Shown here piece after piece: positions 15,985 to 50,011 of a stretch of 50,011 nucleotides of DNA; position 1 is the first letter of the stretch; the number at the start of each line of letters is the position of its first letter. The translations under genes were made by a program, and so were the position numbers. The notes under the pieces were generated by a model, which saw nothing but the letters and a program-made list of their open reading frames with translations, was not told the DNA's origin and made no database searches. The stretch comes from a virus, in the IMG/VR virus record IMGVR_UViG_3300020205_001469, positions 1 to 50,011 of that record; one strand, written 5' to 3'.

Positions 15985-16013
15985 ATTATACAACAGCTCT
16001 TGGTAAAAAGCAA
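15985..16013 (-). promoter_or_regulatory. Sigma70-type promoter TTGCTT-N17-TATAAT
   Basis: A perfect -10 (15985-15990) with a weaker -35 (16008-16013), giving a leader of about 30 nt with AAGG before the clpS ATG. The promoter at 19489-19517 has the same TTGCTT-N17-TATAAT layout. Confidence 0.65.
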
Positions 16014-16282: not shown

Positions 16283-17440
16283 CTACCGTTGTTCTCTGCC
16301 AACCCCTTTTGGACCACTAATTTTTCCTTTGCCTGCAAACTTTGCATTGGTAGGTGGTGCAATCTTAATACGTTTTCCTGGCAATGGTGTTGGCGTTGCC
16401 CTGCCCGCTGCCCCCGCTGGATATGAGTTAGCGTCAGCACCTGCTTCGGCATCTGCACCTGCTCCACCAGTTACAAATGTTATCTTAGGCATAGCTTCTT
16501 GTTCTGGGCCATATATATTAGGCATATCTACTCTGAGTATATCTGCAACTTTGTGTGCATCATCGAACGAGATAACTTGCTTGTTGCCAACATCCATTAA
16601 CATCATTGCATCAAATTTTGTAATTGTTTTGTAATTCTCAAAACTCAATAGACCCCATTCACGTTTAATTCCTGCTATATCACCGGATACAATTTGTTTC
16701 TCTAACGCAGATGAATTAGTGACAAATTTAAATGTTGAGTCAACTACTGCTTTGGCAATCTTTTTTATTGCCGTTGGTTCTAATGTTGGGCGGATTGTGG
16801 TTACCCACGGCTTGACAGATAATCTATCACCAACGGTAACCCCGTTTATTTCCAATTCTCTTTTAATTGACTGCATATCGTATTGAGCTTTTCTGCCAGC
16901 CGTCCATCGACCACCAGCTACTTGTTTGGCTTTTAACTCTATATTTTGGCCGTTAATTTGAATGTCACCAGGAGTACTGTCACTACCAGAAAATTTAATA
17001 TTAGGACTTAGCAGAGCTAGAGCCAGTTCTCCCGGGCCCACTCCCATCGGAGCAAGTGGTATTAGGTTTAAAAATACTCTCATCGCAAACCCAGTGTCGG
17101 TTAAAATCTCATCAAACGATACTGCGACACCCTGTTTAAGTATAGCAGGAATGTTGATAAACCCTTTGTGATAATTGTCTAAAAATACTTGTTTTTCTTT
17201 CAACGTACCATCAGTGTTGTTTATAGTCTGTGCTAATTGCCGCATGAATTTCTTAGCATCTTCATCACTAGATAACACTGAGGTCAATTTAGTATCCAAG
17301 TTATTTTTTTCTAAAACCTGCAGGATTCTATCCAATAATGCTGGATCTGATTCCGCCTTGACTTTGGAGATTATCTCCTTTTTTACGTCAGCAGGTGCTT
17401 GTGTTTCCGCTTCATATATCAAATCTATTAACTCGCGCAT
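16283..17440 (-). CDS. Probable head-packaged protein with PD-(D/E)xK-like nuclease motif
   Basis: The 385-aa product starts at ATG 17440 (AAGG site and late promoter upstream); a longer frame to 17497 has neither. The first ten residues MRELIDLIYE, followed by A, fit the T4 capsid-targeting pattern that ends in (I/L)xE. Around residues 137-180, GELALAL ... PGDIQINGQNIELKAKQ ... GGRWTAGR looks like a PD-(D/E)xK nuclease core with D159, E168 and K170. The C-terminal 60 residues are low-complexity, rich in Ala, Gly and Pro, with basic patches. I infer a nuclease or nuclease-like protein carried in the capsid. Neither activity nor packaging is proven, and substrate is unknown. Confidence 0.65.
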   Translation of the reverse strand: MRELIDLIYEAETQAPADVKKEIISKVKAESDPALLDRILQVLEKNNLDTKLTSVLSSDEDAKKFMRQLAQTINNTDGTLKEKQVFLDNYHKGFINIPAILKQGVAVSFDEILTDTGFAMRVFLNLIPLAPMGVGPGELALALLSPNIKFSGSDSTPGDIQINGQNIELKAKQVAGGRWTAGRKAQYDMQSIKRELEINGVTVGDRLSVKPWVTTIRPTLEPTAIKKIAKAVVDSTFKFVTNSSALEKQIVSGDIAGIKREWGLLSFENYKTITKFDAMMLMDVGNKQVISFDDAHKVADILRVDMPNIYGPEQEAMPKITFVTGGAGADAEAGADANSYPAGAAGRATPTPLPGKRIKIAPPTNAKFAGKGKISGPKGVGREQR

Positions 17441-20775: not shown

Positions 20776-20776
20776 T

Positions 20777-24798: not shown

Positions 24799-24803
24799 AA
24801 AGA

Positions 24804-24811
24804 TATTTATA
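24804..24811 (-). promoter_or_regulatory. Exact T4 late promoter TATAAATA 5 nt before ATG
   Basis: TATAAATA, then TCTTT, then ATG at 24798. With T4 geometry, transcription would begin at or beside the start codon. Confidence 0.6.
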
Positions 24812-24825
24812 ATGATTTTAGTTGA

Positions 24826-24833
24826 CGTAAATA
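24826..24833 (+). promoter_or_regulatory. Late-promoter-like motif CGTAAATA 7 nt before ATG
   Basis: Plus-strand CGTAAATA, then ATTGACT, then ATG at 24841. It is back to back with 24804-24811 in a 42-bp gap. Confidence 0.4.
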
Positions 24834-24840
24834 ATTGACT

Positions 24841-28234: not shown

Positions 28235-28683
28235 AGAGAGAAATCCTCCATACCAGCAGTTTTTAGTTTAACCAAATGACCCAACATAAAGTTTTTAGAT
28301 TCCAATGCCTTCATTACTCCCAACCAACGATTACGTAGTAATGCTACTTCGTTAATCAGTGTTTCATAGTCAATGACTTCATCTTCTCCATCAACATATT
28401 TTTCAGCATCTCTGGCAGTAAGGGCACGATTGTAATTCTCAAGATATTTTTGGAAATATCCTTTGCGTAGTTTACGTAGTTGAATGTTCATATAGTTTAA
28501 TACCGCTTCAATTTCTTGTAGTTGATTAAATCTACGTTCAGTAACACCAGGTAGATCTCTAATGTTACGTTCAACCACACCATTTATACTAATCTCACGT
28601 TTGGCTTCGTCTAGCTCAGCCATGTAAAAATTAATAAATTCTGGTAATTCACCAAGATCTTGGGTTACTTTGTTATACCACAT
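28231..28683 (-). CDS. uvsY: UvsY recombination mediator
   Basis: The 150-aa protein carries the UvsY signature of marine T4-like phages: YFQKYLENYNRALTARDAEK, YVDGEDEVIDYETLINEV, and RNRWLGVMKALESKNFMLG, ending in KLKTAGMEDFSL. T4 UvsY is 137 aa. UvsY loads UvsX onto gp32-covered single-stranded DNA; all three genes lie in this stretch. Its start overlaps the second radical SAM gene by 19 bases. In T4, uvsX and uvsY are also functionally coupled but not separated by radical SAM genes. Confidence 0.82.
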   Translation of the reverse strand: MWYNKVTQDLGELPEFINFYMAELDEAKREISINGVVERNIRDLPGVTERRFNQLQEIEAVLNYMNIQLRKLRKGYFQKYLENYNRALTARDAEKYVDGEDEVIDYETLINEVALLRNRWLGVMKALESKNFMLGHLVKLKTAGMEDFSL

Positions 28684-31138: not shown

Positions 31139-31337
31139 CCTCGTCCTCAGGAGCATATTCCCGTAACGATCGTTTAAGTGCTGGATCACTCCCACCAAAT
31201 TCTTGTAATTCTGAATCACCCAGCATATCTACCAATACACTAATTAAACTATCGGCAGCTTCTTGACGATCTTTTTGTGGTACGTGTTGAATTAAGATTG
31301 CGTATGTCTCGCTTAATACTTCTACATCTATACTCAT
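31113..31337 (-). CDS. Small acidic protein, 74 aa, between uvsX and radical SAM genes
   Basis: An N-terminal helical domain (VEVLSETYAILIQHVPQKDR, then EAADSLISVLVDMLGDSELQ) is followed by an acidic tail (EYAPEDEDADDEEDE). No family recognised, although short genes just after uvsX are common in T4-like marine phages. It is coupled to uvsX by ATGA and overlaps radical SAM 1 by 26 bases. It might be a substrate or partner of either neighbour; neither is shown. Confidence 0.7.
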   Translation of the reverse strand: MSIDVEVLSETYAILIQHVPQKDRQEAADSLISVLVDMLGDSELQEFGGSDPALKRSLREYAPEDEDADDEEDE

Positions 31338-34485: not shown

Positions 34486-36243
34486 TTAAGCCGCAGGTGG
34501 TGCTACTGGAGCAGGCGGTGTTACTGGAGCAGGTGGTGCTATTGGTGCCGGAGTAGCAGGTTCTGGTGATTTAATTTGAGGATATTTTTTCAATATTAGA
34601 TCAATTTTACTAACATAAGTTTTTCCAGCATCAGAAGTTTTAAGTTGGTTCAATAAATTGGCCATATTTGCCAATTCATCATCGTCTGCTTTCATACTTT
34701 GTGGTTTGGCGGCAAGTTGCAACAGTCTGTTTATAATTAATGGTCTTGCATCAAAGTCTGGTTGTGTATCTGCTTTGGATGCCAGCGCATCAAATAACTC
34801 ATCATCACCAAATAAGTCACCCAATGCATTGGTAGCATTGTCAGAATCTGGACCTAGTTCCAATGGTGAAGCCATTAATTTAATAAATTTGTCTACTTGT
34901 TTTTCACTGAGTGGTAACTCCCAGGTACCTTCGTCTAATTGCGATTCAGCCACACCTTGTTCAACTATGCTATGATTTTTTTTTACGATGTCTTTGATTT
35001 CTTTAACATAACTACGAACTAATTTGCCGGCCATCTCGCGATTTGTTTTATTGGCAGTGTCCCAGTTTTCCATAACATGACGGGCAAACTTGGCTATCAC
35101 TTTATCAGATTCAGATAATTTAGTACTGATGTTTTCCAACATCTTGATCATAAATGCATTCTTGTCAGTAAACTCCAACAATCCCAACATATCACGATCA
35201 GATTCATTTAATCCAAATCTGGCGGTACCGGTTTCAAATTGTGCAATCTGGTTGGCTACTTGTGCGGCTTCACGGATTGTGGCAGCATATGCTTTGGCAA
35301 TGTGTGGGATCGCTTGTTCCATTCTTTGATCAAAATACTTTTGAATAAAGCGTTCTTTGAGATCTTCAGTCATCTCATCTAACTGTTCGGCAGATGAGCT
35401 TTCTTCAAAACTTTCCATATATTTGGTATAGCCACGTTGTCCTTTGAGACGATGTAGTGTTTCACGTAATGTGTTGTAATACTCTACTGCTGATTCCACC
35501 ATCTGTGTCGTAGTAGCATCTTCAAATTGTCTACGTTTGCTGGACATCACAAAGTAACGCAAATCTTTTAATTCGTTAATGGATTCATTTACATGTTTGG
35601 AAAATGCATCATTGTGAGCACCACCATTACTGACATGGCGAGCAATAACTCTGCCAGCCAATAGATTGTTGCTTTCTAATTTAAAACGTTCACCTTCATT
35701 GTTTTCAATGAAAATCTTTTCAATATTTCTGCTACGAGCACCATGGATGTTCTCATCAACTTGTGCGCTGTGTTTGACAATTAGTTTAACCGGACCCATT
35801 TTCTGATAACTGCTTTTAGTTGACCCGTATAGCTTGCTTTCAGCAATATCTTTAACTGTGGAATCTTTGGAATACGTTTTAGCAAATGTCTTAATATCGC
35901 GCAATGCCAGACTGGATTTGCCAATGTCTCTAGCGTCAAAAGTTAGTAAGTTTCTCATAGCAAAATTCCTTAATCCTTTTAAAAATGCATACCAATCCTT
36001 GGAATCAAGGGCTGGATTATTTGATATATTTTTACTATAAAATACTTTCAACCCCTTCTTGTCAGCAACAGTAATAGTAATGTTACCAAAACTTTCTTTG
36101 CGTTGTTTATAGTCAAAGTTAAAAAACCTGGCTTCTGCAGGGTCTACTGTATCGTTAGCTTCTTCATCGCCCATATTGATATCTTCAGAACGAGCTCTGA
36201 GCTTTTCAAAAAGGTCTGTACTGATTTGTTCTATAGGTTTCAT
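34486..36243 (-). CDS. Probable head-associated protein, 585 aa, with QGVAE site
   Basis: Mostly helical. It begins MKPIEQISTDLFE, an N-terminal segment that ends in LxE at residue 13 and could be a capsid-targeting sequence. Residues 50-240 form a mixed domain (LKVFYSKNISNNPALDSKDW), 250-420 are helical, and HSIVEQGVAESQLDEGTWEL at 424-443 carries a QGVAE tag (429-433) like those in 40782-42938. It ends with a Pro/Ala tail (APIAPPAPVTPP). An exact TATAAATA motif lies 6 nt before the ATG. Located between terminase and gp32. Head-cargo role inferred. Confidence 0.65.
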   Translation of the reverse strand: MKPIEQISTDLFEKLRARSEDINMGDEEANDTVDPAEARFFNFDYKQRKESFGNITITVADKKGLKVFYSKNISNNPALDSKDWYAFLKGLRNFAMRNLLTFDARDIGKSSLALRDIKTFAKTYSKDSTVKDIAESKLYGSTKSSYQKMGPVKLIVKHSAQVDENIHGARSRNIEKIFIENNEGERFKLESNNLLAGRVIARHVSNGGAHNDAFSKHVNESINELKDLRYFVMSSKRRQFEDATTTQMVESAVEYYNTLRETLHRLKGQRGYTKYMESFEESSSAEQLDEMTEDLKERFIQKYFDQRMEQAIPHIAKAYAATIREAAQVANQIAQFETGTARFGLNESDRDMLGLLEFTDKNAFMIKMLENISTKLSESDKVIAKFARHVMENWDTANKTNREMAGKLVRSYVKEIKDIVKKNHSIVEQGVAESQLDEGTWELPLSEKQVDKFIKLMASPLELGPDSDNATNALGDLFGDDELFDALASKADTQPDFDARPLIINRLLQLAAKPQSMKADDDELANMANLLNQLKTSDAGKTYVSKIDLILKKYPQIKSPEPATPAPIAPPAPVTPPAPVAPPAA

Positions 36244-36249
36244 ATCAAG

Positions 36250-36257
36250 TATTTATA
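36250..36257 (-). promoter_or_regulatory. Exact T4 late promoter TATAAATA 6 nt before ATG
   Basis: TATAAATA, CTTGAT, ATG at 36243. No ribosome site between. One of two exact T4 late consensus matches placed at a gene start. Confidence 0.65.
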
Positions 36258-36261
36258 CCAA

Positions 36262-37827
36262 TTACATTATTATAAAGGGCATTGGCATACGTATGGGTTC
36301 GTCGCTGCCATTACGCATTTTATCATCCAGATTAGCGTCATAACTCTGTAAAAATGCTATCATTCTAACTGCTAATACAGTGGCCATTACTAAATCATCT
36401 GTTTGCCCAGTTAGTGCTTTGTATGTAGTGCCACTGGAAATGAAGTTTTTAAGCTCTGATATTAGTGGTTTACTTTTGATCACTAGTTTGTCTGTTTCTA
36501 CAAAATTCTTAAGTTTAGCACACGCACTTAGTTTGCTTGAGTGTGTGGTTGAAAACCCCTTGCGGTGTTTTCGTACATTACCCAGTCGATGCGGCTCGCT
36601 TAACATTGTGCCTGGTATGTTTTCCTCGCCATACTCACGTAAACTAACCAATCCTGCTTCACCAATTGTGTTATTTTCTAAACTGTAATATATTTGCTCG
36701 TTGGTTTTAACTGTTTCTGCAATAAGAGTTACAATCTCTGCCAAAATTTTAATTTGCTGTTCTACTGGTGTTTTATTATGACACCATTCTGCTACTTGTT
36801 CACAACTGGGTAATTCAAATACTTCTATTGCGGCAGGATCACCACCAGTACCAATGCTGGGATCTAATGCCACTATATAAGTGGATTTGGGATCTATCTC
36901 CTTATACCAGCGTACCTGTCCTTGCTTGTTAATAGGACTAACACCTTCCATACGTGCTAGTTTTAGTGGATCGATCAGTGTTTCATCATCGCGAATAAAT
37001 TCACAATCCATTTCACGACGGAAACGTTCTTCACCCAATTGTCCTCGTTGCTCACTTGCCCAGTTTTCGTCACGATCTGGATGTTCATTCCAGTATGCTC
37101 TGAATGATTTAAATCCGTTTCGTCCAACATCAGTTTCATTACCGAACTCATCCAAGCACTGATTGGCACCTTGCCAAAGTTGTGCAAATTGATCTTCGTC
37201 ACTGTTTGGAGTACTGGTTATAATGGCTTTACCACCAGTTGCCAATGTGGGGCTAATACTGGTCCAAAACTCACGGGCGATAGTTGGTCGCACAAAACTA
37301 AACTCATCGCAATACAGCAATGTTATGGACATACCACGACCAGTATTTTCTGTGGTTGCTTGACTAACTATACGGCTACCATTTTCAAACTCTATACTAC
37401 CTTTGTTGTAACTGGTAACACCAGCACGTATATGATCTGGACAATCTTCGTATGCATAACGTACACGTTGCATAATTTCCTGTGCGCCACTATACTTGTG
37501 TGCCGCCACTAATATAGTTGCGTCAGGTACAAACATGGCATACCATAACAAGTATCCAGCGGCTGTTGCTGTTTTGCCCATTTGCCGAGGTAACATATTA
37601 ATGTTAAATCGATAGTTGTGATAAGTTGCAATTAGTCTGACTTGGAATCCGTAAGGCTGATACAACATCTTGCCTTGCATGGGATGTTGTATATAGAAGA
37701 AGTGAGTTAAGAAATAAAGTGGGCCAGTTACTGGGTCAGCACACTGGGCAAACTCGCGCATTTGTTGTTCGGTATAGTTCTCTTGCCGATTTGGTCGTTT
37801 TATTAACGAGCCGTCTTGTGATGACAT
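36262..37827 (-). CDS. 17: Terminase large subunit (gp17), ATPase and nuclease
   Basis: I start at ATG 37827 (MSSQDGSLIKRPNRQENYTE), in a TAATG junction with the preceding gene; the frame runs on to 37869 but no start there is better. Walker A RQMGKT at residues 81-86, Walker B LLYCDEFSF at 170-178, the TSTPNSDED coupling motif at 205-212, and nuclease residues in IVALDPSIGTGGD (D322), SLENNTIGEAG and TDDLVMAT identify gp17. It packages DNA into the prohead. At 521 aa it is slightly shorter than T4 gp17 (610). The small subunit gp16 is not recognised nearby. Confidence 0.95.
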   Translation of the reverse strand: MSSQDGSLIKRPNRQENYTEQQMREFAQCADPVTGPLYFLTHFFYIQHPMQGKMLYQPYGFQVRLIATYHNYRFNINMLPRQMGKTATAAGYLLWYAMFVPDATILVAAHKYSGAQEIMQRVRYAYEDCPDHIRAGVTSYNKGSIEFENGSRIVSQATTENTGRGMSITLLYCDEFSFVRPTIAREFWTSISPTLATGGKAIITSTPNSDEDQFAQLWQGANQCLDEFGNETDVGRNGFKSFRAYWNEHPDRDENWASEQRGQLGEERFRREMDCEFIRDDETLIDPLKLARMEGVSPINKQGQVRWYKEIDPKSTYIVALDPSIGTGGDPAAIEVFELPSCEQVAEWCHNKTPVEQQIKILAEIVTLIAETVKTNEQIYYSLENNTIGEAGLVSLREYGEENIPGTMLSEPHRLGNVRKHRKGFSTTHSSKLSACAKLKNFVETDKLVIKSKPLISELKNFISSGTTYKALTGQTDDLVMATVLAVRMIAFLQSYDANLDDKMRNGSDEPIRMPMPFIIM

Positions 37828-38039
37828 TATATGGGTTTCTCGCCGGTCAGGTATGGTTTGGCAAACCAAAGTTTAAACCATTCTGGAGTACCTGGTCTTA
37901 TATCGTGTTTACGTTGTAGGTCGGCTTTTTCTTGTCCAGTGATGCTGACATTGCTACCCATGCTGTATGGTTGCCAATTTGGTTTATTAGTTATTCCAGC
38001 TAGGACTTTGAGTTCCTGTAATGGATCATATTCATTCAT
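37827..38039 (-). CDS. Small protein, 70 aa, upstream of and coupled to terminase
   Basis: Starts MNEYDPLQELKVLAGITNKP and ends WFKLWFAKPYLTGEKPI. GTTAAATA-CTTCT precedes the ATG at 38039, which makes this start better than a TTG at 38096. The gene ends in TAATG with the terminase start. Too short for a T4-like small terminase subunit (about 160 aa), so an assembly or regulatory partner is possible. Function unknown. Confidence 0.68.
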   Translation of the reverse strand: MNEYDPLQELKVLAGITNKPNWQPYSMGSNVSITGQEKADLQRKHDIRPGTPEWFKLWFAKPYLTGEKPI

Positions 38040-38044
38040 AGAAG

Positions 38045-38052
38045 TATTTAAC
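38045..38052 (-). promoter_or_regulatory. Late-promoter-like motif GTTAAATA 5 nt before ATG
   Basis: GTTAAATA, CTTCT, ATG at 38039, in the 46-bp gap after the repeat-protein gene. It would drive the small gene and terminase. Confidence 0.5.
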
Positions 38053-38085
38053 TGATCGTCCAGCTGGACTAGATTACTTGGACAA

Positions 38086-38598
38086 TCATCTGGCAAGGAG
38101 TTTTACCTTAAATTCTTTCTGATATGCCTTGGCATATTCAGGGTCTGTGGCAATTGCAGCCTCACCTGGCGGCCAGCGTTTACCAATTATATCTTCGGCA
38201 TACTGGTAGGCCCATTTAGGATCTTTGGCAATTGCGGCTTCGCCAGGTGGCCAGGGTTTTTTAATTACAAAGCGGGCATACAGGTAGGCCGATACAGGAT
38301 CATTGGCAATTGCAGCCTCACCTGGTGGCCAGGGTTTACCAATTACATCCTGGGCATACCGGTAGGCATAGTAAGGATCATTGGCAATTGCAGCCTCACC
38401 TGGTGGCCAGGGTTTACCAATTACATCCTGGGCATACAGGTAGGCATATTCAGTATCTTTCGCCCATAGATGTTCTAGTTCTTGTTTCTGTGCTTTAGTT
38501 TTAGCCATATCCCAAGCAATCGATGGTATTTTCGCAGAGGCATCAGCATACCCCATTAACTGCTGTGGTTGGGCATGGAATCGGTATAGATTAAGCAT
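38086..38598 (-). CDS. PWPPGE-repeat protein, 170 aa
   Basis: After a 45-residue lead (MLNLYRFHAQPQQLMGYADA) come four 26-residue repeats of the form PWPPGEAAIA-NDPxYAYxYAQDVIGK. Related repeats occur in several phage proteins and are likely short helical hairpins; function is not known to me. The start overlaps 38591-39325 by 8 bases. It lies inside the head-cargo block but lacks an obvious targeting sequence. Confidence 0.75.
   Translation of the reverse strand: MLNLYRFHAQPQQLMGYADASAKIPSIAWDMAKTKAQKQELEHLWAKDTEYAYLYAQDVIGKPWPPGEAAIANDPYYAYRYAQDVIGKPWPPGEAAIANDPVSAYLYARFVIKKPWPPGEAAIAKDPKWAYQYAEDIIGKRWPPGEAAIATDPEYAKAYQKEFKVKLLAR
38149..38460 (-). repeat. 78-bp tandem coding repeat
   Basis: Copies of ggcaattgcagcctcacctgg start at 38149, 38227 (with changes), 38305 and 38383, a constant 78-bp spacing (26 codons). 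The two rightmost units are nearly identical, suggesting recent duplication. Confidence 0.88.
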
Positions 38599-39325
38599 CT
38601 AGGTATTTCCCGTAATATTTTTTAATTAAGAAATTCAAAAACTGTGTATATTCTGGAATCTTACTTAATGCCGCAATATCCTGTTTACCAATTTCCAGAT
38701 CGCGTTCGTTCATAAACGATTTGTCTTCCATATGAAGCTGGAATTTGCGAGCCTTACCGCCCAAATTAGCCATGATAATATACAAGTCACCTTTGGATGC
38801 ATAGTTTTGAAATTGATTATTCTCTTTACCCGCAGTACACCATTTTGTACCAGCACCATACAGACACGATGCTTCTTCTGTTCTAGGGACGATGACTTTG
38901 AAGTTGGGAGTATCAATGATTCGATCTGCGTTGGCTTTAACATCACGAGTTTGCTGTTTAGCACTTGGCGCGGCTGGTTGTTGTTCCTCGGTATCGATTA
39001 TATCATATAGCTGATTTAAATCTTTAATCTGGTTTAAATCTTTAATCTGCAACGTATTTCGTATCTTAATAAACTTAGCAATAGAATCGCGCAAGCGAGC
39101 CAAATCATCGAGTTTGAATTGCTGACGCACATACATGTTGGCGATGAATTGTAGATTCTTACCTTGTGGGTCTGGATCTGCTTGCTTTAACTGATCAACA
39201 ATGGCAACCGAATCCATTGGTTGACCCAGATCCTGTTGAGCCGCCGCTTCGATCTTGGACTTCATCTGTGTTGCGATGAACTCCGCTCGATCTTCAAGTA
39301 AATATATAAATTCTTTTGCTCTCAT
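38591..39325 (-). CDS. Probable head-cargo protein with GTKWCT motif, 244 aa
   Basis: Begins MRAKEFIYLLEDRAEFIATQ. The first eleven residues end in LLE and share EFI with T4 internal-protein signals, so this is a candidate capsid-targeting sequence. The C-terminal half has ASCLYGAGTKWCTAGKENNQ and YASKGDLYIIMANLGGK, a Cys/Trp-rich motif that I have seen in uncharacterised phage proteins; I do not know its activity. A Pro/Ala/Gln linker at about residues 115-125 separates the halves. Ribosome site AAGGAAG. Confidence 0.65.
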   Translation of the reverse strand: MRAKEFIYLLEDRAEFIATQMKSKIEAAAQQDLGQPMDSVAIVDQLKQADPDPQGKNLQFIANMYVRQQFKLDDLARLRDSIAKFIKIRNTLQIKDLNQIKDLNQLYDIIDTEEQQPAAPSAKQQTRDVKANADRIIDTPNFKVIVPRTEEASCLYGAGTKWCTAGKENNQFQNYASKGDLYIIMANLGGKARKFQLHMEDKSFMNERDLEIGKQDIAALSKIPEYTQFLNFLIKKYYGKYLDA

Positions 39326-39337
39326 ACCAAAACTTCC

Positions 39338-40780
39338 TTATTTAATTTGTTTAGCTTTGGCTAATAAAGCAATTAACTGTGGTCCCAATGTTGGATCTTG
39401 GAGTAACTTGGCAATGTCATCTAGTGTTGGTAAAAATGCTTGTGCTGTTGCTGGAGTAGATATTCCGTTACTAGCCGCAGTCAATGCTTTGCCCAACGCA
39501 GCCGGATTAGCGCCAACGACAGAAGCCAATTTGCCACTTTGGGTTTTCTGAATTTGTGCCTTTTTAACTTCGATTGGGTCTGGCACCGCACCTGGTACTG
39601 GAGCACCAGGGACTCCTGGAGCCGCTTCACCAATGTTGGGATCAATCCCTCTGGAACCTCTTCCACCTTTTTTACGTATAGCGGCAAGTTCATCTAATCC
39701 ATGTTTAATTTGTTCAACATTCATTGCTAGTTCACCAAATTGGCGAGCAATACTTTCCCAACCAATGGCACTACCATTTTCAGCTCGTTTTGCTAACTCT
39801 TTAAATTGTGCGGCGGCTCTGGCCATACGGTATTGTAGTTTAGCAGGATTGGCACCTTGATGATTGTGGATCATGGGGTTCATCGGTTCTGCTGGATCCA
39901 TTTCAATCGGCGCTTCTGTCACACCTTGAGATCTATTAGTACCTATAGTAACCGCTGGCGCTCTCATTCGCATTTTATCGTTCGATGCTTGCACCACACT
40001 ATCAAAAGTTAAATTAAATACTCTATTGCCATCTTTATCTATTGTTTCATCTCCCAAAACATATCTGCCATTGGCAATAAGATTTGCAGTCATTGCCGCT
40101 TTGGAACTTAACGGAACACCTGGAAGTAGAGTAGTACCTTCACCACCTTTATAAGTTCTAATAGTACTAGGTTTAAACCCCTCGTCTCGCATTATTTCAG
40201 GATATTCCATTATCTCAGCACCCGCCAACACTAACTGTGGGCCTGGGTTAATTTTGGCATAGAAAGTATCTGTGCTTAGTTCTAATATATCCTTTGCAAA
40301 CTCAACATTAAAATCCAATGTAGCGTATCCGCTAACTTTAGTAGCTACATCAATTTCTTTATCAATTTCTAATTTTAAATTATTAACTGCTTCTTCTGGA
40401 TTCTGACCTTTGGCTTTAAATGTTGCTTGCAATGTTCTTGGATTTTCAGCAACCGCAATAAAATATAAATTTTTAAACTTCTGTTTGCTTACATAAACAT
40501 CATATCTTTTGTGTGAACTTAAATTTTTATATTGATTATTAGCTTTATAACCTGACAATTCATTTAATAAGCCCTTTACCACATCAGGCTCCTGGAAGTT
40601 TTCAAACTCTTTTAGATAATCCTGTCCGGATGGTGCAGAGGTTACACTCTCACCACCAACCATTTTACTACGTGACGCTTTAGCTGAGTCTTTTCCAGCC
40701 CAATATCCCGGAAACTTCTTTGGTGCTTTTCTGGGTTTAACTGCGGCAACTTCTGACAGGTGTTTTCTAAATGATTTCAT
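39338..40780 (-). CDS. Probable head-cargo protein with CTS-like start and QGVTE site, 480 aa
   Basis: The N-terminus MKSFRKHLSE-V matches the T4 capsid-targeting pattern in length (10 residues) and end (LxE). A mixed alpha/beta domain occupies residues 60-280 (KRYDVYVSKQKFKNLYFIAV, FKAKGQNPEEAVNNLK), then SQGVTEAPIEMDP at 284-296 holds a QGVTE site, followed by helical segments and a Pro-rich linker (PGVPGAPVPGAVPDP) and a final helix ending KAKQIK. No enzyme family recognised. It directly follows the 40782-42938 polyprotein-like gene. Confidence 0.65.
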   Translation of the reverse strand: MKSFRKHLSEVAAVKPRKAPKKFPGYWAGKDSAKASRSKMVGGESVTSAPSGQDYLKEFENFQEPDVVKGLLNELSGYKANNQYKNLSSHKRYDVYVSKQKFKNLYFIAVAENPRTLQATFKAKGQNPEEAVNNLKLEIDKEIDVATKVSGYATLDFNVEFAKDILELSTDTFYAKINPGPQLVLAGAEIMEYPEIMRDEGFKPSTIRTYKGGEGTTLLPGVPLSSKAAMTANLIANGRYVLGDETIDKDGNRVFNLTFDSVVQASNDKMRMRAPAVTIGTNRSQGVTEAPIEMDPAEPMNPMIHNHQGANPAKLQYRMARAAAQFKELAKRAENGSAIGWESIARQFGELAMNVEQIKHGLDELAAIRKKGGRGSRGIDPNIGEAAPGVPGAPVPGAVPDPIEVKKAQIQKTQSGKLASVVGANPAALGKALTAASNGISTPATAQAFLPTLDDIAKLLQDPTLGPQLIALLAKAKQIK

Positions 40781-40781
40781 T

Positions 40782-42938
40782 TTATTTTCTTCTACGTGTT
40801 ATAGTACCCGGACCGCCATTGGCAAATCCGTTGCCAGCACCCATACTTGTTGCTACACTACCTGTACCCATGCCACCAGCATCTTCTTTAGCTACATTTT
40901 TAGCAAATTGTGCCATATGGCGTAGATGTGGATCTGCGCTATGTATAGCTTGGGCTATTCTGGATTTGGGAATTGTTTCATCTTGTGGTACATGTAATGC
41001 CTTGTGTAGATTGCCTTTGGTCTTGGGATTCACTGCCTTTTGTATCCATTTTTCACCTTCTGTTACACCTTGCTCTTCGGATTCCATATAGTCCCAAACA
41101 TTAACTAGCATAGATTTAGCCACAGCAATCTTTTCTTGACACCATTCAGGCAAATTATCACCAGTGTCAATCAAGTCATCTAATCCGTCCACGGCACGGC
41201 GCAGTGTGCTAAGATTGTTGTCTGCCATTCCTGCTTCGTCATCATATTCGGGATTGTATTCCTCCGCCACACCTTTCTTATTCAATGCATCAATCGCGGT
41301 TTTTTTATGTTCAGGCGATGCGTCGCTCATTGCGATATCTCTAACTATCTTGGCAGTGCCAACCATGTTATCCGTGGGTTCAAATTTGCCCAAACCTTTT
41401 TCATATTCTTTACGCTTGGTTGCAACTTGTTTGGCATGAGCCGAGCGTGGTTCTTTACTACCACCTGCCCAGCCATAAGTTGTACGAAATTTCTTTACTT
41501 CTTGTACTTTTTTCTTACGATAGGTATCGTGAAATGCTTCTGACGAACTAACAGTAAATCCCGCATGTGATGCTACATATTTTTTAGCACCTTCACGTGT
41601 TTTGAATTTTCTTGCCTCTGTACCGTTTTTATGTGCTATCCAAGCACCAAGTGGATCAGCTTTGGTTTCCGCCACATCCTGCTCATTACCGTACTGCCTT
41701 AATAGCATCTTACCACTAGCAACTTCAAATCTACCCTTAACGGCAGGACCTAATCGCTTAGTAGCCCGTCGTTCTATTTTAGATAAATTTAATTCAGCAT
41801 CGTTTTCATCAGTATATTCACCATACAATACCACCGCATTATCCCAAGCCCAAACATAGTATTTGTTAGGATCAATAGTGTATGCACTACCATGAATAGT
41901 CTCAATGCGGGCTTCCGCCACACCTTGTAACTTTTTTAATTCTAACTCAAGTTCTTGAACTCGAAGTTGTCGTTCTTGTTCTTTAGCAATAGCAATAAGA
42001 TTCTTAAGACTACGGATACGATCTGCTTTTACTGTATCTTTGGTCATTGGACTTGCATTATCAAATCCGCCTTCCGCCACACCTTGCTCTTTAACATAGT
42101 TAGCACGAACATTCCCTGACTGATAGTTCTTTAGATTTTTGGCTGCTACTTTTTCTTTCGATTCTTGATCTTTTTTGTATGTTTCTCTTTCAGCTTTTTG
42201 TCTTGCCAATTCTTTTGCTGATGTTCTAAGATCGTCAAAGCCTTCCGCCACACCTTGCGTAATACGATGATTTCTGCCGCCAAAAATTTTGCGGATAGTA
42301 TCAATTGCCTCTTGCTCGCTATTAGCGCGAACTGAGTATGTCTTTGTGTATAATGGGACATCTTTGTTGGAACCATGATGCTCAGCTGTGACGTGGAACA
42401 TCTGTTCTACTTCTTCCGCCATACCCGGCTGACCTTTGATTGCTTGTAACAATGCACGAGCAACTACACGATCCTTTTCCTGTTCATCATCAGGTAACTG
42501 TGCATACTCAATGTTCATCAACTTGGCTCGTTGTTGTAGTTTTGCTTCTAATTTGCCAGCGGCTTTTAGTTTTTCTGTATCGTCAAATTGATCAGGATTT
42601 TGTACAAATGCTCGAGCAGTGACATTCCAACCTTTGTGTATGGCGTCGCTAATTTGTTCTATATCTGTAACACCTTTATCAATCATTTGTTTAGCAAACG
42701 CGGCAGATTTTAGGTTAGCTTGCCATCCAAATGTATTTCCGGGTGTACTACGACCATAATGATATGCATTATCCAATGCTTCGTCACTGATTGTGGCCAA
42801 CTCTGGGACTGACATTTGTTTAACTGGCTTTGCCATCTCATCTGGGCTAACAGGATTGTTTCTTAAAAAATCTCTAGTTGGATTTCTAGTTTTAGATGCT
42901 TCTGCTAGTTCTGAGTTATGAAAATCGGTAAACTTCAT
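40782..42938 (-). CDS. Polyprotein-like head-cargo protein with repeated VAE/VTE sites, 718 aa
   Basis: N-terminus MKFTDFHNSELAE-A could be a capsid-targeting sequence cut at residue 13. Later sites: GMAE 172-175, QGVAE 228-232, QGVAE 285-289, QGVAE 338-342, QDVAE 420-424, GVAE 556-559, QGVTE 623-627. They separate unlike segments, including a charged coil (ELARQKAERETYKKDQES), an aromatic beta segment (KYYVWAWDNAVVLYGEYTD), a DNLPEWCQEKIAVAKSMLVN helix and a basic end. The sites resemble prohead-protease sites (LxE or IxE in T4). Each module is 50-140 residues. I infer a head polyprotein. Confidence 0.72.
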   Translation of the reverse strand: MKFTDFHNSELAEASKTRNPTRDFLRNNPVSPDEMAKPVKQMSVPELATISDEALDNAYHYGRSTPGNTFGWQANLKSAAFAKQMIDKGVTDIEQISDAIHKGWNVTARAFVQNPDQFDDTEKLKAAGKLEAKLQQRAKLMNIEYAQLPDDEQEKDRVVARALLQAIKGQPGMAEEVEQMFHVTAEHHGSNKDVPLYTKTYSVRANSEQEAIDTIRKIFGGRNHRITQGVAEGFDDLRTSAKELARQKAERETYKKDQESKEKVAAKNLKNYQSGNVRANYVKEQGVAEGGFDNASPMTKDTVKADRIRSLKNLIAIAKEQERQLRVQELELELKKLQGVAEARIETIHGSAYTIDPNKYYVWAWDNAVVLYGEYTDENDAELNLSKIERRATKRLGPAVKGRFEVASGKMLLRQYGNEQDVAETKADPLGAWIAHKNGTEARKFKTREGAKKYVASHAGFTVSSSEAFHDTYRKKKVQEVKKFRTTYGWAGGSKEPRSAHAKQVATKRKEYEKGLGKFEPTDNMVGTAKIVRDIAMSDASPEHKKTAIDALNKKGVAEEYNPEYDDEAGMADNNLSTLRRAVDGLDDLIDTGDNLPEWCQEKIAVAKSMLVNVWDYMESEEQGVTEGEKWIQKAVNPKTKGNLHKALHVPQDETIPKSRIAQAIHSADPHLRHMAQFAKNVAKEDAGGMGTGSVATSMGAGNGFANGGPGTITRRRK

Positions 42939-42955
42939 TGGAGTATCCTTTATCT

Positions 42956-43228
42956 TTATTTAGTGAAATTACCGATGGAATCTAGTGTAATCGGTATTTG
43001 GTTCAATGTTGCATCACGCAACTGAAACATCTCTTGTCTGTCTGCACTGATCCAAACTTTATGTTTTCCTGCTGGTAAATTTAACAACAAGTTCTCAGTA
43101 ATATATGTTTTAGTATGATCCCAGATAAAAGTTCGTTCTGCGATTAAGTCAGAATTGACATACAAACGATATATTGGTGTTAATGCAGAATCGGCACAAT
43201 GTACATTAACTGTTAACTTGTCTTCCAT
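42956..43228 (-). CDS. Small beta-rich protein, 90 aa, unknown
   Basis: It reads MEDKLTVNVHCADSALTPIY with strand-like IAERTFIWDHTKTYITENLL and AGKHKVWISADRQEMF. The pattern suggests a single beta-sandwich. No family recognised. It starts in a TAATATG junction after the ligase-like gene and could be a small head decoration or accessory protein. Confidence 0.65.
   Translation of the reverse strand: MEDKLTVNVHCADSALTPIYRLYVNSDLIAERTFIWDHTKTYITENLLLNLPAGKHKVWISADRQEMFQLRDATLNQIPITLDSIGNFTK
42957..42964 (-). promoter_or_regulatory. Late-promoter-like motif ACTAAATA
   Basis: Ends 18 nt before the ATG at 42938, with AAAGGA between; overlaps the end of the preceding gene. 6 of 8 to the T4 consensus. 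Confidence 0.4.
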
Positions 43229-43229
43229 A

Positions 43230-45086
43230 TTATTTTTTAGCTACAGGTTTGACTGGTTTGACTGGTAATGCTGGTGCTGCCGGCTCATCAGCAATACCCA
43301 TGCCATCACGTGTGGCTTGATATAATGTTTTGCCACCCACTTTGATATTTGGTCCTACTCCTGTGGCTTTCTGAAATCCAGCCTCATCTCCAGCAGTGGC
43401 TAATTTACGTGCTAGTGATCCACTGATACCAGCTAACCCACCTGCATCAGGATCACGGTCACCACTACTAACGAATGTTAGATGAACGTGTTCTCGTCCA
43501 GTAGGACCACGAGCATTGTCTGTGGTGCGAACTGATCCACTATTCCATCCAGTTAATAACTTTTCAATACTGCCAGCACTATTACCCAAACGGTCACTGC
43601 CACCAATAAAAGCTATGTTACGGAAGCCTTTATCATACAACCAATTTGCGGCATAGATAGGACCTTGCACTGGATCAGACACGATACGGGCCGCATACTT
43701 GGGATATATTGCTTTGATAAAGGCTGCTTTGGTTGCTGGATCTAATGGATCATCTGGTGCTTTGTTACTGTTACTTAAGAATATATAACTGTTCTTTCCA
43801 CCTGTTGCTACTGTTTTGGCCATAACTAAATTATGACCTAGTGTGGGTGGATTCATACGTCCAAAACAAAATGCAGCCAATGGCATCTTCTGCTTGGCTG
43901 CTACCTCGTCGTCAGACACACGATGTTTAGCAAAGTTTGCTTTACTAAATCCCAGTCGGTCAATTAGTTTTAGTTTATCTCGACCAGCACCAAATACATA
44001 TCCTTCATGTGCAGTTGCACCATCTGTTGTGGCAATAATTTCACTATTTTGTTGTTGTGAGTCTATCTGTTGTTTAATATGTAGTTTTAAATCTGTTACC
44101 GCGGCCCACATACTCCACAATCCCAATAATCCTGGAGCACCACCATCTTCTTGATATAACCAACCATCATTGTTTGCACCCAAAAACTTTGCTGTTACTA
44201 CTTTATTATCAGCGAATCGTTCACGTAGGAAATTTAAAAATCGTGGTACAATATCCGCACTTACATCATTCTCTTCCAACATACGTGTAATAAACGGGCT
44301 CATTGCTGTTATAATGCTCTTGCCCTTCATAGCAGTTACATCTGCCATAAATTTAGTTACTGCTTTTTTATGCTGTCTAATTACTGTTTCAGCTTCACCC
44401 AACACTCGTTTATCAACAGCAACTTTGGGCTTCTCGGTCATTTCTCCAACTAGGAAAGTGATACCAGCTTTTTCTTTAAGCCCCCGTAATCCCACCAGCG
44501 GAACATCGCCCTGACCTAACCCGTTGATAAAGGTATGTACTGCTATACCACCAGCACTCTTGGTAATTTTGTCACCAAGTGGACTATCAATTTTAACTTT
44601 GTATTCTACGGTATTGGGTTTAAAGACATAGAATCCATCTTTGGTAGCGGGAGTATATGCCCACATTAAGTCACCCATCCAATACTGATCCTTGACCATG
44701 GGTACTATTTTTTCTAGCAGTGGGCGCATGATACCTTCTTTGTCCCATAGATCATTGCGATTAGATCCACGTTGCTCGTCATAGGCAGCAATGCTCATAA
44801 ACTCCATCTTGCCCTTGGAGACTTTGTCGTACATATGTTTGTCTACAAATACTATTTGTCCTGCGGCATCGCGACCAAACACCACTGCTGGAAATCCATC
44901 CCATTTAACGGTTACTGTATCGGTATTTTTACCCAGACCTTTTAACTCGGCAACTGCACGTTCAGCACCAGCGGCACCATCGTCAATAATCAAATCTTCA
45001 ACGTGAGTAATACCTTCAGTTAGTACCTTGGGGGCGGCATGTAGTGGGAATTTATCCGACTGGTTAAAAATCTCAAATAATCTCAT
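43230..45086 (-). CDS. ATP-dependent ligase-like / NMNAT-like nucleotidyltransferase fusion, 618 aa
   Basis: Residues 60-380 carry covalent nucleotidyltransferase motifs: KWDG (motif I, K61), WMGDLMWAY (motif III-like, 136-144), AHEGYVFG (IV, 359-366) and KLKLID (V, 371-376), as in DNA or RNA ligases. Residues 400-570 form an NMNAT/cytidylyltransferase domain: FGRMNPPTLGHN (408-419; TxGH variant of HxGH), FIGGSDRLG and ISGSLAR (554-560). A Pro/Lys tail follows. The N-terminal 24 residues end in LTE-G, a possible capsid-targeting cleavage site. ATGA overlap with 45083-45997. RNA repair or NAD-linked roles are guesses. Confidence 0.75.
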   Translation of the reverse strand: MRLFEIFNQSDKFPLHAAPKVLTEGITHVEDLIIDDGAAGAERAVAELKGLGKNTDTVTVKWDGFPAVVFGRDAAGQIVFVDKHMYDKVSKGKMEFMSIAAYDEQRGSNRNDLWDKEGIMRPLLEKIVPMVKDQYWMGDLMWAYTPATKDGFYVFKPNTVEYKVKIDSPLGDKITKSAGGIAVHTFINGLGQGDVPLVGLRGLKEKAGITFLVGEMTEKPKVAVDKRVLGEAETVIRQHKKAVTKFMADVTAMKGKSIITAMSPFITRMLEENDVSADIVPRFLNFLRERFADNKVVTAKFLGANNDGWLYQEDGGAPGLLGLWSMWAAVTDLKLHIKQQIDSQQQNSEIIATTDGATAHEGYVFGAGRDKLKLIDRLGFSKANFAKHRVSDDEVAAKQKMPLAAFCFGRMNPPTLGHNLVMAKTVATGGKNSYIFLSNSNKAPDDPLDPATKAAFIKAIYPKYAARIVSDPVQGPIYAANWLYDKGFRNIAFIGGSDRLGNSAGSIEKLLTGWNSGSVRTTDNARGPTGREHVHLTFVSSGDRDPDAGGLAGISGSLARKLATAGDEAGFQKATGVGPNIKVGGKTLYQATRDGMGIADEPAAPALPVKPVKPVAKK

Positions 45087-45997
45087 TTTACTTTGTCCAA
45101 TATACTTCTAAACCAGTCTGATGTTCCTTCTTGAACTGGGACTGGATAAAACTGTTTTACTGCATCCCATTTTTTAGGATATTTTTGCAAGGCATTTTTG
45201 ATACCGGTTAAACTAGATATATCACGAGCTTTGGCTTCTGGCCCAATTAATATTTTTGCTATTTGATCTTTATCAATAGCCACAACCTTTCCAGTTGTTC
45301 TATCTACTAGTCCATTGTCAGGACTAAATTGTAAACTACCCTTGACCTCACCAGTTTTGGGATCAGTAAATTGTCGTGGACTACTTACTTTGGTCAGTGC
45401 CGCATATAGGTCGTTCCACAAATCTCCACCACGCATATTTTGATCCAAACTAAAATCGTGTGTATGTAGCATCCAAGCTGACCGTGGCCGTACGATTAAA
45501 TCTACCGAGTAGTGTTTGCCACCAGCAGTATATTCCAATGTCAATGTGCCAGGATCCGTAGGTAAGCCATTTTGCGTCATAAAAGCAGCCAATGCTGCCT
45601 TGCTGGCTTTCATTTGTAACCCAGCTTTTTTGGCTGGATCTGCCATGGCGTTGTCTATTGCTTTGGGGCCTAGTGGTTTGGCTGATGCGGCATTCCACTG
45701 TGCTATATCTGCTGGGAATTTTTTAACTAACTCTTGCGGATCAATCATAATATCCACGTCGCCAGAATCTTGTCTTAGTGTTCCAGAATACGGATGTTCT
45801 GGATCAAAACTGCCTGCACCCCCTGATGTCCAACCAGCACTAATGCCGGCTTTTTTAAGGATGGGATTTATCTTGGCTTTTGCTGTAAGAAAAGCATCTT
45901 TTGTAATACGTGATACATCCACGCCTGCGGCGGCTAATCTCTTGCCGGCTTCTGCTATATTTGTTGCAATTTTTGTGTGTTTAGCAATAGAATTCAC
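45083..45997 (-). CDS. Nucleotidyltransferase-fold-like protein, 304 aa, candidate head cargo
   Basis: The GSFDPEHPYSGTLRQ segment followed by DSGDVDIMIDPQELV (D-x-D at 77-79) resembles the metal-binding core of DNA polymerase beta-type nucleotidyltransferases, although the canonical GS motif is shifted. Then LTLEYTAGGKHYSVDLIVRP supplies the third strand with an Asp. The start is GTG at 45997 with GGGGA upstream; the N-terminus MNSIAKHTKIATNIAE-A could be a targeting sequence ending IAE. It overlaps the ligase-like gene by 4 bases, suggesting a functional pair. Function unproven. Confidence 0.65.
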   Translation of the reverse strand: MNSIAKHTKIATNIAEAGKRLAAAGVDVSRITKDAFLTAKAKINPILKKAGISAGWTSGGAGSFDPEHPYSGTLRQDSGDVDIMIDPQELVKKFPADIAQWNAASAKPLGPKAIDNAMADPAKKAGLQMKASKAALAAFMTQNGLPTDPGTLTLEYTAGGKHYSVDLIVRPRSAWMLHTHDFSLDQNMRGGDLWNDLYAALTKVSSPRQFTDPKTGEVKGSLQFSPDNGLVDRTTGKVVAIDKDQIAKILIGPEAKARDISSLTGIKNALQKYPKKWDAVKQFYPVPVQEGTSDWFRSILDKVK

Positions 45998-47393: not shown

Positions 47394-48188
47394 TTACTCC
47401 TCGGTGTATTTACTTGCATAAACTACCTGTTGAATTTTTCCTATCTTACCTGGCCAAGTCAAATGCAACCAACTGACTTCTGCTTCTTCTCTTAGGTAAA
47501 ATCTAATACCATTAAAGTAGTAAGTATCAGTAACAATGTTTGATAACGATTGCCATGCCAGCCTGGTAGATTTGACTCGATCTGCAAAGGTACCGTTAAG
47601 TTTTTCTGCAAGCCCAACTGATAGTTTAGCATCTACATTCTTAAGATATGTTAATAACCGTTTGGTATCTGCTATTTGATATCTGCCTTCTCGTATAGTA
47701 ACCAAAAACCGATAAGGGGTTTCTCGCTTGAGTATAATTAAGTCTTTGGCTAAAATCCGTAAACTTTGCTCGCTATCAGGCACATATATAGTGGCAATCT
47801 TTCGCCGCACTAATGGTGATACTGATTTTGTAAATTGTTCTGCATCTTGTTCCGTAACAAAATAGCAATCTAAATTGTCGCGCTCTACCCGCATTTTGAC
47901 TGGTGGTGATTGTGCTGTTAGGTAGGTGGTCAAGTCAGTTAATAATTGTTCATTCTCCCAAGTGAGCGGAGGATGCGTATTGTTATAGGCACCGCGCCAA
48001 TGCCGCCTCTTTTTAGCTTCAGCAAGTACAATATCGCTAGATTGTCCTTTGCGACACCCATTCACTATGTCCTGTACTTCTGGCGATTTGATAGTAATCT
48101 TGTAGTAATACTGGCCATAAAACTTTTTACTAACTGGAACAATAGTTGCTGTTGGATTAACTGTACTCCATATATTGTTATTGAGCAT
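47394..48188 (-). CDS. Conserved phage protein of unknown function, 264 aa
   Basis: Mixed fold: YGQYYYKITIKSPEVQDIVN, KMRVERDNLDCYFVTEQDAE, RFLVTIREGRYQIADTKRLL and a C-terminal WLHLTWPGKIGKIQQVVY. I start at ATG 48188 (AAAGGTGCTTG upstream, inside clpA), giving an 11-bp overlap with the ClpA-type gene. No motifs of a known enzyme. It ends 5 bases before the 55-aa gene, so the right-end genes appear to be one operon. Confidence 0.68.
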   Translation of the reverse strand: MLNNNIWSTVNPTATIVPVSKKFYGQYYYKITIKSPEVQDIVNGCRKGQSSDIVLAEAKKRRHWRGAYNNTHPPLTWENEQLLTDLTTYLTAQSPPVKMRVERDNLDCYFVTEQDAEQFTKSVSPLVRRKIATIYVPDSEQSLRILAKDLIILKRETPYRFLVTIREGRYQIADTKRLLTYLKNVDAKLSVGLAEKLNGTFADRVKSTRLAWQSLSNIVTDTYYFNGIRFYLREEAEVSWLHLTWPGKIGKIQQVVYASKYTEE

Positions 48189-50011
48189 CAAGCACCTTTA
48201 CTTTACTGGACTCTATTTCAAATGCAAACTTAGAGTCAATATAATCAATAGTGATTATACTATTGGGTTTAACTACCTCAAATAACAACTTTCTGCTTAG
48301 TGGTGTCTTAATTTCGTTGTCAATGACCCTGGCCAACGGCCTTGCGCCCATCTTTTTATCGTATCCCTTTGTTATCAATGCATCGATACAACTCTCACTG
48401 CAACGAACTTTAAGTTGCTTGCTACTAAGTAGTTCATTTAACTCTTGCATAAACTTGTTAACTACTTTCTTAATACTGAGAGTATCCAATGACTTAAATT
48501 TAACAATTGCATCCAATCTATTTCTAAATTCAGGTTTAAAGAAATCCTTAACTTCTTTATCATCAGCATCTGTACGATCTAATACTGTTGTAAATCCCAT
48601 ATTGCTACGTTCGTTGGCCTCGGCACCCAGGTTACTGGTCATAATAACAATAGTGTTACGGCAGTCAGCTTTCTTTCCGTTACTACCAGTAGCCACGCCA
48701 TCATCCATTACCTGCAACAATACGTTATAAACATCTGGATGCGCTTTTTCAATTTCATCAAACAATATAATTGAGTGAGGATGTTTTTCCACTTCACTAA
48801 TAAGCAAGCCACCAGCCATACTACCATCTTCATAGCCCACGTAGCCAGGTGGAGCACCAATTAGTTTAGCAACACTGTGCCGTTCCTGGTATTCACTCAT
48901 GTCAAATCGCAACAACTTCATGCTTAACTGTTGACTTAACAATTTAGCAAGTTCTGTTTTACCAACACCAGTTGGGCCTGTGAATAAGAAATTACCAATG
49001 GGCTTATTAAGCGATTTAAGGCCAGCTTTGGCCACAAATATTTTTGCCAATACCGTATCAACAGCATGGTCTTGCCCATATAACTTCTCTTTAATAGTAT
49101 CCTCTAGCGTTACAGATACTTGATCACGTTCTCCCATTAATTGCTGTAATGGTATTTTAGTTTGCTTGCTTACTATGTCTAAAATATGTGATTTAGTAAT
49201 TAGAAATTTGCCTGCTTTAATCTTGGCCTTGGCGCATGCCATATCAATTAAGTCAATAGCCTTGTCAGGTAGTTTCCTATCACGAATATATCTGTCGCTG
49301 TACTCAACTGCAATATCAATAGCAGTTTCTGATATCTTGCCGCCATGAAATTCTTCGTAACTGGATTTTAGTCCACGTAAAATTTTCTTGGTAGTATCTA
49401 CTGTGGGCTCATCAATACTCAACCTATAGAATCGACGCATTAACGCACGATCTTTTTCAAAACTCTGAGTATATTCTTCCCATGTGGTAGATGCAACTAC
49501 TTTGATTTTACCTTTAGCCAGGGATGGTTTTAACATGTTAGCCAAGTCCACACTACTTTGACTGCCTGCACCGGCGCCTTTCATTTGATGTGCTTCATCG
49601 ATAAACAAGATACAGTTCTTTTTAGCTTCCATTGCGGTAAGTATGTCTTTGAGTTTTTCTTCAAACTCACCGCGATACTTACTACCAGCCAACAAACTAC
49701 CAACATCTAAATTGTATACTATAAAGTCTTTTAAGTAATCCGGCACAAATCCCTTGAGTATGTTGTATGCCAATCCTTCCACAATAGCCGTTTTGCCTAC
49801 TCCTGGATCACCAACCAACAATACATTACTCTTATTCTTACGTGCTAGTACTTGAATAATTTCGGTTAGTTCATCATCACGACTAATAACTGGATCAATC
49901 TTTCCTTCTTCACATAACTTGTTGACATTGGTGCAGTATTCATCCAAGATACTATCTGCTCGTGAATCCGACACATCCTTGGTGGCTTTGCCGTAGTTTT
50001 TATTAAAGAAC
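48178..50011 (-). CDS. clpA: ClpA-type AAA+ unfoldase, N-terminus outside window
   Basis: The visible 610 residues contain two AAA+ modules: GDPGVGKT with ILFIDEAH (first) and GPTGVGKT with IILFDEIEKAHPDVYNVLLQ (second), plus GSLLAGSKYRGEFEEKLK and RPLARVIDNEIKTPLSRKLL. In E. coli ClpA an IGL loop contacts ClpP; here the corresponding segment has MGF (SNMGFTTV), close to the [LIV]G[FL] rule, so ClpP binding is plausible. The frame stays open to the right edge (no stop before 50011), so the N-domain that binds ClpS is not visible. With ClpS at 15652-15951 it could redirect host ClpP. No ClpP gene is seen. Confidence 0.92.
   Translation of the reverse strand, partial: FFNKNYGKATKDVSDSRADSILDEYCTNVNKLCEEGKIDPVISRDDELTEIIQVLARKNKSNVLLVGDPGVGKTAIVEGLAYNILKGFVPDYLKDFIVYNLDVGSLLAGSKYRGEFEEKLKDILTAMEAKKNCILFIDEAHQMKGAGAGSQSSVDLANMLKPSLAKGKIKVVASTTWEEYTQSFEKDRALMRRFYRLSIDEPTVDTTKKILRGLKSSYEEFHGGKISETAIDIAVEYSDRYIRDRKLPDKAIDLIDMACAKAKIKAGKFLITKSHILDIVSKQTKIPLQQLMGERDQVSVTLEDTIKEKLYGQDHAVDTVLAKIFVAKAGLKSLNKPIGNFLFTGPTGVGKTELAKLLSQQLSMKLLRFDMSEYQERHSVAKLIGAPPGYVGYEDGSMAGGLLISEVEKHPHSIILFDEIEKAHPDVYNVLLQVMDDGVATGSNGKKADCRNTIVIMTSNLGAEANERSNMGFTTVLDRTDADDKEVKDFFKPEFRNRLDAIVKFKSLDTLSIKKVVNKFMQELNELLSSKQLKVRCSESCIDALITKGYDKKMGARPLARVIDNEIKTPLSRKLLFEVVKPNSIITIDYIDSKFAFEIESSKVKVLDAQ

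Follow-up and report, generated by a model that had tools for sequence, protein, structure and literature searches.

We consider it likely, from comparison of sequences between relatives, that the genes around the large terminase subunit in the DNA analysed here encode head cargo which is targeted and processed as in T4, with the T4 scheme extended to cleavable cargo polyproteins whose modules are shuffled. The stretch studied is a 50,011-base fragment of an uncultured virus record, hereafter the window. On this view the genes of the block specify proteins of the head interior in a large T4-like myovirus. Each would be recruited into the prohead core by an N-terminal targeting peptide, which a gp21-type prohead protease, presumably encoded outside the 50-kb fragment, would remove by cutting after hydrophobic-x-Glu. 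This protease may also cut polyproteins wherever (Q/K)GVAE-type sites separate their modules, and we therefore propose that several small proteins could be carried in by one targeting peptide, the cargo leaving the head together with the DNA when a host is infected. The junction would in addition be the place of module exchange, insertion and deletion between strains, and the cargo set may therefore evolve quickly. Tests of domain boundaries gave results far beyond chance; that this phage packages, cuts and ejects the proteins is what we infer, as are their enzyme roles. A previous sequence-only reading, which saw in seven products capsid-targeting N-termini and a virion cargo system, is partly supported; its main idea appears to hold for the greater part of the block, on stronger grounds than it gave.

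Genomic context

All seven open reading frames flagged in that reading exist with correct coordinates, and the terminase that it placed among them is real (36262-37869, matching PF03237 at 5.6e-18). One of the seven, 16283-17440, sits apart from the six-gene block around the terminase. The genes are as follows (an arrow marks a predicted cut).

16283..17440, minus strand: candidate cargo protein that begins MRELIDLIYE↓A and contains a PD-(D/E)XK-like motif
34486..36243, minus strand: putative virion protein (phrog_13484) with an insertable cassette, homologue of PA5oct EST35_0206
36262..37869, minus strand: terminase large subunit of the T4 gp17 type, flanked on both sides by putative cargo genes
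38591..39325, minus strand: putative cargo protein with a GTKWCTA motif, start MRAKEFIYLLE↓D, homologue of PA5oct EST35_0205
39338..40780, minus strand: putative cargo protein, start MKSFRKHLSE↓V, internal site QGVTE↓APIEMDP
40782..42938, minus strand: probable modular cargo polyprotein whose start resembles a targeting peptide and whose interior has seven hydrophobic-x-E sites
43230..45086, minus strand: putative cargo protein with DUF6267 (KWDG motif; PF19782 at 2.5e-33, phrog_3041 at 7e-24) and a cytidyltransferase domain
45083..45997, minus strand: putative cargo protein, polymerase-beta-like nucleotidyltransferase, mature domain predicted from AGKRL (residue 17)

By terminase large subunit, the closest cultured phages are jumbo myoviruses: the PA5oct-like phages come first (53% identity), followed by Phosso, Atu_ph07 and the RaK2/121Q group. 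A PADLOC search with seven proteins returned no match. The cargo block also holds a 170-aa protein (38086-38598) without a targeting-like start, containing four near-repeats of YAQDVIGKPWPPGEAAIANDP whose DNA copies are spaced at 78 bp. Elsewhere in the window we noted by eye a ClpS-like adaptor (15652-15993) and a ClpA-like ATPase (48178-49974), and ClpS, ClpA, ClpX and ClpP are also among the PA5oct annotations. The stretches 26473-27954, 28665-31219 and 19556-25692 encode a carbamoyltransferase-like protein, two proteins of likely radical-SAM type and a set of genes resembling methyl- and glycosyltransferases, part of them on the opposite strand. The 1420-aa product of 1029-5291 is probably a fibre, as it is rich in coiled-coil-like repeats (NALSxEIxNRxSADxALSxRI).

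N-terminal targeting-like peptides

The T4 prohead protease is specific for LxE and IxE and acts on 10-residue targeting peptides (PMC9026906). A short start ending in (L/I/V)xE, previously ascribed to all seven products, holds for those of 39338, 16283, 38591, 40782 and 45083; the 43230 product is without a short site, and in the 34486 product the LFE falls in a start that is conserved across the listed homologues (MREINKIAEGLFEKIRDRFED) and is therefore not convincing as a variable signal. A loose form of the pattern occurs in 6/7 flagged genes versus 8/43 other window genes, and since the flagged genes had been picked by eye the case from the window by itself is weak. In PA5oct the pattern did not discriminate virion proteins (14/89 of those detected by ESI-MS/MS versus 17/110 undetected), and we dropped it as a predictor of virion location. 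The comparison with relatives carries the case. Among 81 terminase-proximal sequences (80 loci of relatives plus the window), a strict pattern with T4 spacing follows 53/1890 N-terminal methionines (2.8%) versus 17/7781 internal ones (0.22%). Many of these cases belong to one family, MKNFLQYLSE↓xQKTYEFRIK, encoded upstream of the terminase, whose PA5oct counterpart EST35_0202 (MKSFRDYYDASKRKYSFVIKIA) is annotated as detected by ESI-MS/MS.

The frequency of the loose pattern by chance, both in the window and in PA5oct, is what would be expected were the starts ordinary amphipathic N-termini of late cytosolic proteins that are never packaged, their likeness being due to chance and shared ancestry. 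We regard this as very improbable given the excess of the strict pattern, the virion annotation of the PA5oct homologues of the 34486 and 38591 products, and the boundary statistics of the 45083 and 43230 families and of alignment starts described below.

Conserved domains behind variable putative propeptides

The predicted sites and propeptides outside the 40782 product are the following.

45950..45997, minus strand: variable N-terminal propeptide of the 45083 product, predicted cut ..NIAE↓AGKRL (..ATNIAE↓A)
45128..45136, minus strand: VQE↓G, a candidate second site towards the C-terminal end of the 45083 product, VQEG kept in 3 homologues with a short tail after it
45015..45086, minus strand: 24-residue propeptide of the 43230 product with an M-x-L-x-E start, predicted cut PKVLTE↓GITH
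40751..40780, minus strand: T4-like 10-residue targeting start MKSFRKHLSE of the 39338 product
39914..39928, minus strand: predicted internal site QGVTE↓A (residue 289) of the 39338 product
34945..34959, minus strand: predicted internal site QGVAE↓S (residue 433) of the 34486 product

In the 45083 family a Glu precedes [AS]GKRL in 9/10 homologues, and one homologue has KTE; the flank ahead of the Glu varies in both length and sequence while the part behind it is conserved: NIAE↓AGKRL in the window, and MQMQE↓AGKRL, MTIQE↓AGKRL, MQVHE↓AGKRL, RALEFIFE↓SGKRL and RLYDLFE↓SGKRL in relatives. One homologue, L267, begins at MAGKRL without a propeptide and is possibly a cytosolic version of the enzyme. 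In the 43230 family the comparative site lies at residue 24, where E24-G25 is invariant in 9/9 homologues behind a variable stretch, giving a layout of M-x-L-x-E, variable stretch and (L/I/V)xE↓GI. Over both families, majority identity is 0.32-0.40 before the cut and 0.74-0.82 after it. Both domains also occur internally: the 45083-type domain of relative L270 follows QAVAE↓AGKRL at residue 351, and the DUF6267-type domain of relative L271 follows KIIAE↓GIDHPEDL at residue 301, so that in one L271 protein the second cargo domain stands behind a site equivalent to the N-terminal site of the first. The two domains are fused in L270 and L271.

The claim that several products look enzymatic stood for these two families and, by motif, for a third. 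The 45083 product has conserved DSGDxDIMID and SxDL motifs, and its predicted fold (pLDDT 80.7) gave DNA polymerase lambda/beta as best Foldseek match (probability 1.00, E 3e-5), with a TM of only about 0.37; residues 1-28 are disordered (pLDDT <50), as expected for a removable peptide. The 43230 product combines DUF6267 with a cytidyltransferase domain, and its invariant KWDG presumably resembles a ligase nucleotidyl-transfer motif. Searches of the 45083 product against Pfam and PHROGs gave no useful match, PDB sequence searches with both families gave none, and no 45083 homologue was found in the cultured phage collection. For the 16283 product, the start at 17440 is supported by a Shine-Dalgarno-like AAAGG upstream of the ATG, with no such sequence at the alternative start (17497), and homologues begin MRKLINLLLSE↓A, MRDLISITNKLFE↓A, MRKFIDLIKLTE↓D and MKIRELFE↓D. 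Its residues GE..SP..GD(L/I)..(I/V)E(L/V)K are conserved and arranged as is usual in PD-(D/E)XK nucleases; the predicted fold was of low confidence with no PDB match, so the possible nuclease assignment derives from the GDI..IELK motif.

In the 39338 product an APIEMDP module follows QGVTE, and in other phages this module follows IKE, VKE or LQE. Neither this product nor that of 40782 had a useful Pfam or PHROGs match. At the residue-433 site of the 34486 product, the homologue in sister strain L001 has ~57 additional residues, between VSE↓A and VKE↓S.

A probable modular polyprotein with exchanged segments

The product of 40782-42938 is probably a modular cargo polyprotein, cleavable at the sites where its modules exchange. 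Its seven internal sites, which the sequence-only reading had missed, are all (V/M)(A/T)E and mostly (Q/K)GVAE.

42900..42938, minus strand: targeting-like start MKFTDFHNSELAE↓A; in L001 and L002, MKFADFHNTKLAE↓A
42414..42428, minus strand: predicted site PGMAE↓E (residue 175), at which L002 has an exchange point, its homology ending exactly there
42243..42257, minus strand: predicted site QGVAE↓G (residue 232), CAAGGTGTGGCGGAA
42072..42086, minus strand: predicted site QGVAE↓G (residue 289), CAAGGTGTGGCGGAA
41913..41927, minus strand: predicted site QGVAE↓A (residue 342), CAAGGTGTGGCGGAA
41667..41681, minus strand: predicted site QDVAE↓T (residue 424), at which both L001 and L002 have an exchange point
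41262..41276, minus strand: predicted site KGVAE↓E (residue 559), marking the left edge of a module that also occurs in other phages
41058..41072, minus strand: predicted site QGVTE↓G (residue 627), where L001 and L002 have DVMAE↓G instead

The sister strains L001 and L002, which are about 95-97% identical to the window nearby, keep the start and the C-terminal part of this protein and have the middle replaced. Homology between the window and L002 ends at residue 175, a site, and resumes at 421, close to the site at 424; a piece common to L001 and L002 is bordered by the L001 sites 228 and 276. One exchange point, near residue 43 in the comparison with L001, lies off any site. At the last site the EEQGVTE↓GEKWIQ of the window corresponds to EDDVMAE↓GEKWIQ in both sisters, which have lost QG and kept hydrophobic-x-Glu-Gly. 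A distant relative of module 559-622 is found in a small protein beginning MKTFKQLREE.. in the cultured cyanophages S-WAM2 (L285) and S-H9-1 (L286), with the gene of an annotated structural protein lying two genes downstream.

Internal sites across phages

A codon-degenerate search of the viral collection for EQGVAEG returned at least 120 stretches, and some genomes carry arrays of up to 11 sites per record. Among the matches listed, targeting-like starts were present in 53/100 QGVAE open reading frames with a visible start versus 298/1412 controls (P = 2e-11). By an automated criterion applied to all proteins compared, the same domain stands behind an N-terminal peptide in one protein and behind an internal linker in another in 64 distinct cases, some of them weak. 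In alignments involving QGVAE proteins, hydrophobic-x-E common to both partners was 3.7-fold enriched at alignment starts; when E was substituted by D, K, R, Q, G, A, L, S or T as controls, the values were 0.17 to 0.53-fold. Across 53 distinct site-spanning pairs, Glu was kept at homologous internal sites in 87% of subjects, other positions in 28-70%, and P3 was V, L or M in 46/53. Alignment ends are only about 3-4-fold more frequent at sites than at random, and about a quarter of them at most lie no more than 6 residues from one, which leaves part of the domain borders unaccounted for. Most modules had no Pfam match, and the literature matches listed for QGVAE included no phage paper.

Packaging of long uncut proteins has a precedent in the N4 virion RNA polymerase (PMC5512222), and modular proteins might likewise be packaged whole here, with only the N-terminal peptides cut and the internal GVAE segments left as linkers. 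We think this unlikely, since the sites found inside proteins share their residues with those at N-termini and stand before the same domains, and a protease that cuts the N-terminal site should therefore cut the internal one.

At the DNA level the site is more uniform than a protease would need, the identical 15-mer CAAGGTGTGGCGGAA occurring in 124/192 sites of the codon-degenerate search among the matches listed. Together with the site arrays and the exchange of modules at sites, this could be read as a recombination repeat or mobile short element that is translated as a harmless flexible linker within multidomain proteins that are never cut. We judge that account a little less probable even than the uncut linkers. 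The QGVAE frame is used in 334/346 evaluable sites, and such frame locking implies a constraint at the protein level and rules out a purely mobile repeat as sole cause. Glu and the hydrophobic P3 also persist in diverged sites that have lost Q and G, and domains lacking QG still begin after hydrophobic-x-E and are also found behind targeting peptides. In the bacterial genome collection the 21-mer had a single exact hit, on a Rhizobiales contig, where it reads KQGVAEG in an unrelated-looking frame.

Cargo cleavage at QGVAE may nevertheless coexist with a role of its DNA: QGVAE would be a protein cut site that also serves as a frequent exchange point, the latter half being what we infer. In its full form, with a 15-21 bp junction (consensus GAGCAAGGTGTGGCGGAAGGC, EQGVAE↓G) acting both as prohead-protease cut site and as DNA exchange point for swapped cargo modules, such that modules inserted in frame would be targeted, freed and injected, we give the proposal an even chance.

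Protease, capsid junctions and virion proteins

No prohead protease was found within the 50-kb window. Matches to Peptidase_S77, the T4 gp21 family, above the curated cut-off were present in 5/15 terminase relatives and 5/20 QGVAE-bearing records, many of the other records being fragments, and where read the gene adjoins portal, scaffold and major capsid genes. Capsid precursors of relatives have the junctions KYLSE↓SATAGAT, KHLME↓TATSGAT and KYLKE↓NASAGST, and that of PA5oct FLVE↓NASAGAT, the cuts, assigned on the T4 model, falling just ahead of the conserved start of the capsid protein. The starts of QGVAE proteins in L189, L214, L130 and others, such as MRFNQIVE↓TTTAGSVATVA, mimic this capsid junction (E↓SATAGATSAGNVAT).

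In PA5oct, EST35_0206 and EST35_0205 adjoin the terminase and are both annotated 'structural protein, ESI-MS/MS'; the latter aligns with the 38591 product at 32% identity (E 5e-40). EST35_0203, likewise annotated from ESI-MS/MS, carries VEE↓TASAGASSAGGIAS, and RaK2 ORF112 is annotated as a virion structural protein. The ESI-MS/MS annotation extends to likely contaminants (ribonucleotide reductase and single-strand binding protein) and is therefore supportive, not proof of an interior location. Capsid targeting with gp21-type cleavage, as previously proposed for the whole set, is well supported by the domain boundaries, the S77 proteases and capsid LxE junctions of relatives and the two PA5oct homologues; the start of the 34486 product and the site position in the 43230 product do not fit it as first described.

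Comparison with known systems

If this reading of a processed and modular head cargo is right, the hydrophobic-x-Glu boundary rule would provide a sequence test for injected proteins of uncultured phages and would mark the start of each mature cargo protein. Large phages could then renew their injected set fast, with modules travelling behind one peptide and freed by the head-maturation protease. Nucleotidyltransferases and possibly a nuclease are among the predicted cargo, and such enzymes could act on the nucleic acid of host or phage just as the phage enters.

The system resembles the T4 internal proteins IPI-III and Alt in its short N-terminal peptide, the predicted cut after hydrophobic-x-Glu, the gp21-type protease (here in relatives), the one signal common to unrelated proteins and the location in a late block with head genes. 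It differs in that T4 cargo consists of single proteins without tandem cut sites, whereas here strings of modules carry internal sites and exchange modules, and in that the putative propeptides are 5-24 residues long, unlike those of T4. In phiKZ and SPN3US many head proteins, among them inner-body and ejection proteins processed by gp175/gp245, are also cut after Glu, with several sites per propeptide; however, their sites are S/A-x-E and lie mostly inside discarded propeptides, and shuffled modules with a constant site are not described in the literature examined on these phages. Polyvalent proteins (Iyer et al. 2017, PMC5512222) are likewise multidomain, thought to be injected with DNA and subject to domain shuffling. 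Several of them are described as bearing their own peptidase domains, with no constant prohead-protease junction described, and unlike them the modules considered here are short and mostly absent from Pfam.
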